From positions 4,712,001-4,776,000 of the forward strand of contig NZ_CP062008.1 in the NCBI RefSeq assembly GCF_005670685.2: a DNA stretch of 64,000 nt. Direction: 5' to 3'. Positions 55,559 through 57,503 of this stretch are shown here, one piece after another. Within the stretch, counting starts at the first letter, position 1. Each line of letters opens with the position of its first letter. This DNA comes from Mycolicibacterium mucogenicum DSM 44124. Its GTDB lineage: Bacteria > Actinomycetota > Actinomycetes > Mycobacteriales > Mycobacteriaceae. Position numbers and translations under genes: made by a program. The notes beneath the pieces are model-generated. The model searched no databases and was not told the origin of the DNA. It was given only the letters and a program-made list of their open reading frames with translations.

Positions 55559-56470
55559 CTACGGCTGCCCGCGGCGCACCGCATCCGGCGCCGGCAACTG
55601 CCACTGCCGGCCCTGCTCGAGGTCGAAGCTCATGGGCTCGTAGCGCAGCATGCCGGTGCCCGGGTACGGGGTGTACTCGCCGAACCACACGTCGCCGTCG
55701 ACGGCATAGAGGTCGACGCGGATGAAGTCCCAGTCGGCGCCCAGGACCCTCGCGATCTCCAGCATCTTGTCCAGCTCGACGGGCCGTTCCTCGGGTGCGA
55801 CCGGGTGAATGCGCCAGCGCACCGGCAGCTGACGCCAGTCGGCGTCCAGAAAGGTGGTGGTCTGCTTGTTTCCGAACCGGCCGCGGTTCACCTGGATCAG
55901 CTCGACGCGGCCGTCGAAGACGAAGAACTTGTAGTCGACGGGCGCTTCGCCGTCCGGCGTCGGGATGCGCTCCTCGAGCAGCAACAACGGCCGCGCTTCG
56001 CTGTAACCCCACTCGCCGAGCTCGAGCGGCGTCTCCTGGAACCAGCTTCTGGTCTGGTCCCGCAGGCGGTCCAGATCGGTGTGCGGATCAGGACCGAACA
56101 GCGCCTGGCCGCTGCTGGCATTGGGTTTGAGCACCCAGGACGGGAGCGACGCCAGGTCCGGCGCGTCGCGCAGGTCGGTGCCGGACCAGTACGTGGCGGG
56201 AATCCGGAGATCGGCGCCGGGGTACGCCGCGCAGGCCATCTCCTTCATCCACATCTTGTCGCAGGCCTTGACGATCCGGTCCCGCCGATCGTGGAAGATG
56301 CGCCAGTTGACCTTCTCGTTGAAGGTCGTCGGCTCATCGAAGTTGCCCCGCTTGCGGATCATCAAGAGATAGAGGACATGCCGCAGGAACCGGACCGGAA
56401 TCAGCGCAAGCAGCCGGCGCCGGACGGACATGAGCCACGACGGCGTCGCGATGTATGTCAGCAGCGGCAC
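55559..56470 (-). CDS. TupA-like ATP-grasp protein
   Basis: GTG 56470, 4 bases after the upstream formyltransferase stop, gives 303 residues. The N-terminus (RRRLLALIPVRFLRHVLYLLMIRKRGNFDEPTTFNEKVNWRIFHDRRDRIVKACDKMWMKEMA) and the ATP-grasp core (WVLKPNASSGQALFG, LLLLEERI, VDYKFFVFDGRVELIQVNRGRFGNKQ, FIRVDLYAVDGDVWFGEYTPYPGTGM) match TupA-like ATP-grasp proteins, which join carboxylates to amines, for instance Glu to a polymer. The product is unknown. With the formyltransferase it forms a two-gene, iron-box-controlled operon. Confidence 0.82.
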   Translation of the reverse strand: MPLLTYIATPSWLMSVRRRLLALIPVRFLRHVLYLLMIRKRGNFDEPTTFNEKVNWRIFHDRRDRIVKACDKMWMKEMACAAYPGADLRIPATYWSGTDLRDAPDLASLPSWVLKPNASSGQALFGPDPHTDLDRLRDQTRSWFQETPLELGEWGYSEARPLLLLEERIPTPDGEAPVDYKFFVFDGRVELIQVNRGRFGNKQTTTFLDADWRQLPVRWRIHPVAPEERPVELDKMLEIARVLGADWDFIRVDLYAVDGDVWFGEYTPYPGTGMLRYEPMSFDLEQGRQWQLPAPDAVRRGQP

Positions 56471-56474
56471 GGGT

Positions 56475-57413
56475 TCAGACCCCGGTGGTGAGGTAACCGC
56501 CGCGGCGGAAGAACTCCGCTCCCCCGTGTTCCACCCCGTCGGCCGTGCGGAGCCGGGTGATGACCAGGCCGAGGTTCCCGCCGCGGTGGGCATGCGCGCC
56601 GCACACCACCGCGCCGCCGCCCTCCTGCACGATCACCCGGCCGGGGGTGCCGCCGTAGCGGATGTCGGACACCTTGGACTCGAGCACCTCGATGCGCTCA
56701 CCGCGGTAGAAGGTGAACGCGCGCGGGTAGGGGTCCGACAGCGCGCGGACGAGGCGCTCCAGATCCTCTGCCGGCCAGCTCCAGTCGATGAGGCTGTCGC
56801 GTTCGGAGCGCTTGTGGAAGTAGGTCCGCTCGGCCTTGTCCTGCGGCCGCCACTGTGCGGTGCCCGCTTCCAGCGCGGTCAGCGCCTCGTCGAGCGCACC
56901 GGGGATCAGGTCGATGCCGCGCATCACCAGTTCCGTGCCGGTGTCGTCGGGTCCGATGGACAGCGAACGCTGGACCAGGATGTCGCCGGCGTCGAGCTCG
57001 GCGTTCATGCGATGGATGGTCAGGCCGATGTGCGATTGGCCGCTGATCAGCGACCAGATGACCGGCGAGAAGCCGGTGCCCTTCGGCAGCAGGGAGTCGT
57101 GCAGGTTCAGGGTGCCGTGCGGCGGCAGGTCGTAGAGCTCGTCCGTCATCCGCGTGTACCAGCTGTTGACGACGATGACGTCGGGTTCGGAGCGCTTGAC
57201 GAGGTCGATGGTCTCGTGGTCGGCGCGCATGGTCAGGTGGACCGGGATGTCGTGCGCCTGGGCGAGTTCCTCGACCGAGTCCGAGAAGATCGCCTTGTAC
57301 GACTCGGTGCTGGTCGGGTGCGTGACGACCATCGGCACGTCGTGTCCCAGATCGATCAGCGCCTGCAGCGTCTTGACCCCCCACGTCTGATAACCGAAGA
57401 AGACGACGCGCAT
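56475..57413 (-). CDS. FxbA-like N-formyltransferase
   Basis: A 312-residue formyl-tetrahydrofolate-dependent transferase. The N-terminal domain starts RVVFFGYQTWGVKTLQALIDLGHDV. The active-site region NLHDSLLPKGTGFSPVIW with the later MNAELDAGDILVQRSL supplies the Asn, His and Asp of the family. A C-terminal OB-like domain (YPRAFTFYRGERIEVLESKV ... GRVIVQEGGGAVVCG) is like that of Fmt/ArnA proteins. The text is close to FxbA, which I recall as the formyltransferase of exochelin synthesis. An iron box 72 bp upstream supports a siderophore role. Formylation of an amino sugar is the alternative. Confidence 0.85.
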   Translation of the reverse strand: MRVVFFGYQTWGVKTLQALIDLGHDVPMVVTHPTSTESYKAIFSDSVEELAQAHDIPVHLTMRADHETIDLVKRSEPDVIVVNSWYTRMTDELYDLPPHGTLNLHDSLLPKGTGFSPVIWSLISGQSHIGLTIHRMNAELDAGDILVQRSLSIGPDDTGTELVMRGIDLIPGALDEALTALEAGTAQWRPQDKAERTYFHKRSERDSLIDWSWPAEDLERLVRALSDPYPRAFTFYRGERIEVLESKVSDIRYGGTPGRVIVQEGGGAVVCGAHAHRGGNLGLVITRLRTADGVEHGGAEFFRRGGYLTTGV

Positions 57414-57484
57414 GCCAATACCTCACTAAGTCTGATTCCGCTGTCGATCGGCACGATGTCCGCCGACCGTTCATCAAGATCAAC

Positions 57485-57503
57485 TTAGCTAAGTCTTGCC
57501 TAA
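57485..57503. promoter_or_regulatory. IdeR-type iron box
   Basis: On the minus strand TTAGGCAAGACTTAGCTAA matches 14 of 19 positions of the IdeR consensus TTAGGTTAGGCTAACCTAA. It lies 72 bp before the formyltransferase ATG in the 116-bp gap. Iron-loaded IdeR would repress the formyltransferase/ATP-grasp pair. Confidence 0.72.

Follow-up and report, generated by a model that had tools for sequence, protein, structure and literature searches.

An iron-boxed N-formyltransferase/ATP-grasp gene pair of Mycolicibacterium mucogenicum and its possible role in formyl-hydroxamate formation without a nonribosomal peptide synthetase

To our knowledge, all known mycobacterial siderophores are products of nonribosomal peptide synthetases (NRPSs). 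In Nocardia, clusters in which an N-formyltransferase replaces the N-acetyltransferase have been linked to N-formyl-N-hydroxylysine siderophores, as stated in PMC7413640. Here, a window of 64,000 nucleotides of Mycolicibacterium mucogenicum DSM 44124 (bases 4712001-4776000 of the 6.10-Mb single-contig genome) is considered, in which genes for an N-formyltransferase (FT) and a TupA-like ATP-grasp amidoligase (AG) lie one behind the other (Table 1). Comparative sequence analysis gives good support for FT-AG as a real, recurrent, iron-boxed gene pair and for a partnership of both enzymes. With a probability of roughly 0.4, the pair would form an operon that, when iron is scarce, makes a small formyl-hydroxamate with no NRPS involved. 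Literature searches on ATP-grasp, siderophore, formyltransferase, exochelin, nocobactin, rhodochelin, and TupA topics turned up no description of an FT/ATP-grasp pair in the accessible parts of the sources, in agreement with the original prediction, which was made from the window sequence alone and regarded the pair as its best candidate for an undescribed system.

Gene pair and iron box

As originally predicted, FT is followed by AG after 4 bases (TGA stop codon of FT at 56475-56477, GTG start codon of AG at 56470) and is preceded by an IdeR-type box, which matches the IdeR box consensus TTAGGTTAGGCTAACCTAA at 14 of 19 positions and the degenerate form TWAGGTWAGSCTWACCTWA at 16 of 19. The window contains a single such site, compared to none in 100 shuffles. 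With up to 3 mismatches to the degenerate consensus, 13 matches, two of which overlap, were found in the 6.1 Mb of the genome, and a single one for the reversed pattern. Many of the other boxes are located at genes recognised as usual IdeR targets, namely those of salicylate synthase, an ABC (ATP-binding cassette) transporter, MbtK, MbtL/M, ESX-3, a siderophore-interacting protein, and glutamate synthase, all named by eye without annotation. Among 70 FT-related loci in named genomes, two of which (L033 and L067) were left out of the count due to a cut-off upstream region, a box with up to 4 mismatches was present in the 300 bp preceding FT in 66 out of 68 and absent from L013 and L028; in most of the loci its distance from FT is similar to that in the window. 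Of 1400 pieces of 300 bp drawn at random from these loci, 77 matched, some through the true boxes. By these counts the box is more than a chance match; it is conserved and located at promoter distance, as expected for the IdeR regulon. Iron-loaded IdeR would be the putative repressor of the operon.

The AG start is in agreement with the length of 303 aa in the closest relatives; a longer AG frame of 344 aa, with an ATG start at 56593, is improbable because it would run into FT. Judged by the ratio of nonsynonymous to synonymous substitution rates (dN/dS), which is 0.13-0.27 for FT versus six relatives and 0.13-0.26 for AG, both genes are under purifying selection.

Table 1. Features of the FT-AG locus (positions in the window)
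Feature	Position	Strand	Remarks
N-formyltransferase (FT)	56475..57413	minus	312 aa; PF00551 2.1e-27, PF02911 1.1e-16
TupA-like ATP-grasp amidoligase (AG)	55559..56470	minus	303 aa from GTG; PF14305 9.8e-25
IdeR-type iron box TTAGGCAAGACTTAGCTAA	57485..57503	minus	72-90 bases before FT start

Relatives of the formyltransferase and the NRPS slot

The closest named relatives of FT occur in Mycolicibacterium sp. lyk4-40-TYG-92, CBMA 234, Mycobacterium sp. ST-F2, and M. llatzerense. In the tree, FT is situated in a clade separate from the exochelin-type enzymes (support 100/100), to which it is 56-62% identical, and it groups with Nocardia enzymes adjoining NRPS genes (71-78% identity; node of 100/100 with two Nocardia rows). 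An iron box precedes most of these Nocardia relatives. The label "exochelin-type" was derived from an adjoining NRPS gene, an N-hydroxylase homologue, and grouping with the M. smegmatis enzyme P0164 (58% identical to FT; FastTree), which we take to be FxbA, a name given to it by none of the sources. In the 8 fetched loci of this type the NRPS gene is located divergently upstream and, in 7 of them, the N-hydroxylase homologue follows 69-128 bp behind; the sources label these formyltransferases as methionyl-tRNA formyltransferases. Due to its position outside this clade, membership of FT in the exochelin group was rejected, and the designation "FxbA-like" of the original prediction is not supported. 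The nearest relatives of FT are located in siderophore-type NRPS clusters rather than in tRNA or sugar loci. According to tree and gene context, FT belongs to a sister clade of the exochelin-type enzymes that occurs mostly in mycobactin/nocobactin-like or other NRPS clusters, and this clade points to N6-hydroxylysine rather than N5-hydroxyornithine as substrate.

ArnA is the best match of FT among solved structures, and FT residues N103, H105, and D141 align with catalytic positions of ArnA. Since, in addition, the NCBIfam models score FT below their cut-offs, database names do not settle its substrate. Comparison with PHROGs assigned FT to a family of phage formyltransferases and gave no match for AG.

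Co-occurrence was studied across 248 mycobacterial genomes, with thresholds of E<=1e-60 for FT and E<=1e-40 for AG. FT was found in 72 genomes, 53 of them with members of the group of 72-100% identity and 19 with the 56-62% group only; G187, one of the 53, has a copy of the latter group as well. Out of 73 FT places outside the window 60 were fetched, the remainder being 12 of the lower-identity group and the second G092 copy. AG occurs in 18 genomes, all of which (18/18) are among the 53. An NRPS gene is located behind FT in 35 of the 53, in 32 cases as the large same-strand gene that follows directly and in three (G046, G061, and G199) with the first NRPS match approximately 2.5 kb after the FT start. 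Only one of these 35 genomes, G202, contains AG, on another contig, versus 17 of the 18 genomes without an NRPS behind FT (adjoining FT in 11, apart from it in 6). AG and the NRPS behind FT are thus nearly mutually exclusive, and AG takes the operon slot of the NRPS. In 15 of the 17 genomes the box is present at up to 3 mismatches, that of G096 being counted from its interrupted FT gene. Fisher tests, which were not corrected for kinship, gave 6e-14 for the joint occurrence of AG and FT, and 1e-11 for AG versus an NRPS neighbour. The FTs of the six genomes with AG apart fall into one supported clade, and a single origin of all 17 AG-linked FTs was not rejected by the tree.

Better evidence of a partnership than these tests is the movement of the pair. 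Adjacent FT-AG pairs occupy seven genomic sites, told apart by shared neighbours, although twice a single gene family is common to two of the sites (a GT2 in one case, an acyltransferase-like gene in the other). In G233 the order is bioB-DUF2567-FT-AG-lipase-nadA, whereas in the six genomes with separate genes AG alone is located beside bioB, DUF2567, and the lipase gene, and FT with its iron box occurs elsewhere (names at this site by eye, except DUF2567). In the named genomes, an ATP-grasp gene follows FT in 6 of 70 loci, four of them at the same site as in the window. The family search that the original prediction had proposed revealed a recurrent pair. Two irregular copies were observed as well. 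In G206 (L161:1498-3138), both genes form a single frame of 546 aa, due to either a frameshift or an assembly error, and in G096 (L231) the first and remaining parts of FT are approximately 1.25 kb apart, with AG located elsewhere and lacking internal stops. The interrupted FT of G096 and the retention of mycobactin genes would fit a relic, in which FT remained behind when a nocobactin-type NRPS was lost and AG is a chance passenger. This is the least probable of the explanations considered, given that the pair occurs at seven sites, both genes are kept even in six genomes where they are split, dN/dS is low, and the box is mostly retained.

Of the 35 NRPS neighbours of FT, 17 match mycobactin MbtE/MbtF at 40-46% identity and 18 are other NRPSs. 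In the 15 of these 17 with enough flanking sequence fetched, MbtC, MbtD, and MbtT homologues are oriented divergently, often together with MbtA and MbtG. No MbtK match (E<=1e-40) was found in 12 of the 17 genomes, in line with the mycobactin of M. abscessus, which lacks an acyl group on its internal hydroxylysine and whose genome lacks the mbt-2 locus, as reported in PMC9505556. For the 17 genomes (including L193, L195, and L197; 12 without MbtK), formylated, nocobactin-type mycobactins are predicted. The M. mucogenicum genome itself contains a mycobactin locus at approximately 1.74-1.76 Mb with MbtG, and a separate MbtK, both named by us and not by annotation. FT might provide the ordinary mycobactin NRPSs with formyl-N6-hydroxylysine, so that a polar formyl-mycobactin arises in addition to the long-acyl form, AG acting in an accessory step. 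MbtG and the mycobactin NRPSs of the genome, the lack of an MbtK match in 12 of the 17 genomes with FT in a mycobactin-like cluster, and the formyl nocobactins linked to such an FT (PMC7413640) speak in favour of this. It is nevertheless rather unlikely, since MbtK is present in all 18 AG genomes, so that FT is not needed there for N-acylation, and since the retention of AG with FT is left unexplained.

The window contains no condensation domain, as the original prediction had noted by stating that no NRPS is nearby. The genome search it suggested yielded 19 condensation-domain matches, distributed over the mycobactin locus, a 10,317-aa NRPS (5.53-5.56 Mb), and three single-domain matches. The large NRPS is encoded in one frame (C1:5527055-5558008, L116-L118) and contains 8 adenylation motifs; an MmpL gene is located behind it. 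It is conceivable that FT supplies this NRPS in trans, as rhodochelin requires three independent clusters (PMC5550956), and its first 1000 residues are 54% identical to the FT-adjoining NRPS of M. ostraviense. We consider this improbable: no iron box at up to 5 mismatches was found in the surrounding 60 kb, the MmpL neighbour fits a lipopeptide, and the adenylation codes, as far as extracted, are unlike those of the FT-adjoining NRPSs of relatives (codes were extracted by motif with several positions doubtful or missing, and amino acids were not assigned).

At 0.85 Mb (C1:847880-849968; L122:7880-9968), an OlsB-like GNAT acyltransferase gene overlaps a gene for a lysine/ornithine-type N-hydroxylase, both behind an efflux gene of the major facilitator superfamily and without an iron box at up to 5 mismatches. 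Together with the exochelin-type copies, hydroxylase relatives (E<=1e-60) were counted in 49 of 248 genomes; G187 has one only beside its exochelin-type FT. As an obligate partner of FT-AG the hydroxylase was rejected, because no more than 5 of the 18 AG genomes contain close relatives (G000, G157, G204, G206, and G233).

The amidoligase and the glycan alternative

AG matches PF14305 with 87.9 bits (Pfam cut-off 25), and its residues K115 and E265 are invariant across 35 aligned relatives. The predicted model (predicted local distance difference test score, pLDDT, of 91) has an ATP-grasp fold and resembles carboxylate-amine ligases such as D-Ala-D-Ala ligase, LysX/ArgX, RimK, and an L-amino acid ligase. 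Foldseek and VIA pointed to general ATP-grasp enzymes without indicating a substrate. In genus g9 of the same taxonomic family (L303:3814-11129), an adenylation-thiolation protein, a P450, and a condensation-adenylation-thiolation NRPS module precede an AG relative that ends the operon with an overlap of 4 bases; Pfam supports this arrangement for L303, and L304 appears similar by eye. Seven AG loci outside the genus (L284, L285, L286, L289, L290, L295, and L296) adjoin one common gene family, judged by eye; the L295 copy of that gene matches no Pfam family.

The main rival explanation is glycan decoration. Under iron limitation, AG may use an amine made or capped by FT to amidate a uronic acid in surface glycans or glycolipids. 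The ATP-grasp domain of Campylobacter Cj1438 is a precedent for such an amidation in the PF14305 family (PMC11800379). In G231 (L187:1-19901), the pair is located inside a glycolipid-type cluster with genes for GT2, UDP-glucose dehydrogenase, an FkbM methyltransferase, a GT28-type glycosyltransferase, and an AMP-binding enzyme. Furthermore, a GT2 homologue adjoins FT in G014, and 5 of 27 AG loci outside the genus were judged by eye to lie beside polysaccharide-type genes, one of which was confirmed by Pfam. The cluster of G231 also contains an MmpL-like gene. In contrast, no glycosyltransferase gene was seen by eye to adjoin the pair in the window, G042, G233, G011/G133, or G084, although trehalose/glycogen-type genes follow it in G084. 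In the window, ROK kinase and anthrone-oxygenase-like genes flank FT-AG on one side and rplJ-rplL (named by eye) on the other; an alpha-mannosidase-like gene is located near the pair, as is the ROK kinase gene. Considering also the siderophore-type clade of FT, its iron box, and the near-exclusion of AG and NRPS behind FT, glycan decoration appears unlikely, while still ranking ahead of the other alternatives.

A candidate NRPS-free route and its relation to known systems

In the NRPS-free hydroxamate route that we tentatively prefer, low iron would lift IdeR repression and switch on the FT-AG operon. With 10-formyl-tetrahydrofolate as donor, FT would formylate an N-hydroxylated diamino acid, for which N6-hydroxylysine supplied by MbtG of the resident mycobactin pathway is the most likely candidate. 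AG, in place of the missing NRPS at the peptide-bond step, would activate a carboxylate with ATP to an acyl phosphate and then form an amide bond. We infer N6-hydroxylysine as substrate, amide formation on the FT product, and a hydroxamate as product, which may be an accessory iron ligand beside full mycobactin, either dipeptide-like or a modified mycobactin precursor. This route is suggested because the box, the occurrence of the FT clade in NRPS clusters, the co-occurrence of FT and AG, the seven sites, and purifying selection coincide, because the AG model resembles carboxylate-amine ligases and an AG relative ends an NRPS-module operon in L303, and because the source genome combines a mycobactin locus containing MbtG with a separate MbtK.

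Several observations weigh against it. Glycan genes surround the pair in G231 and adjoin it in G014; no box precedes the pair in G233 and G014; G220 has FT with neither an NRPS behind it nor AG; and in four genomes an NRPS-like adenylation match is located at a distance of 4.7-6.1 kb behind the FT start. The 0.85-Mb hydroxylase does not follow AG across genomes. In the six genomes with AG apart from FT, AG lacks an iron box within approximately 1.5 kb, and iron control of both enzymes is consequently not general. With yet more reservation, it is tempting to speculate that the pair makes hydroxamate iron ligands of a class new to mycobacteria and formed without an NRPS, AG having replaced the NRPS in its slot and N-hydroxylysine of the mycobactin pathway serving as feed. 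If true, the two-gene route would be a further kind of siderophore in the genus, and an ATP-grasp enzyme would be seen to occupy the operon position of an NRPS.

In the NRPS-independent fungal E-64 pathway, condensations are reportedly carried out by ATP-grasp enzymes, but kingdom and product are different, and we know of neither a formyltransferase nor iron control there. Both terms, "ATP-grasp" and "NRPS-independent", occur in the fungal E-64 paper (PMC12568646). Domain and fold are shared with TupA-like ATP-grasp proteins (PF14305) such as the C-terminal domain of Cj1438, and amide-forming chemistry is expected; unlike Cj1438, AG is a stand-alone protein behind an iron-boxed formyltransferase with no glycosyltransferase gene adjoining at this site. 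FxbA of exochelin has the formyltransferase family and the iron box in common with FT, which in contrast belongs to a separate clade and adjoins neither an NRPS nor an N-hydroxylase gene (the strong hydroxylase match being at 0.85 Mb). TerH-type N-formyltransferases of the nocobactin-like siderophores terpenibactin, formobactin, and brasilibactin are represented in the comparison by the Nocardia enzymes adjoining NRPS genes, with which FT groups, TerH itself not being compared. The FT described here differs from them in its location outside a mycobactin/nocobactin cluster, its pairing with an ATP-grasp enzyme, and the additional presence of MbtK, and the same comparison predicts which mycobacteria make formylated mycobactins.
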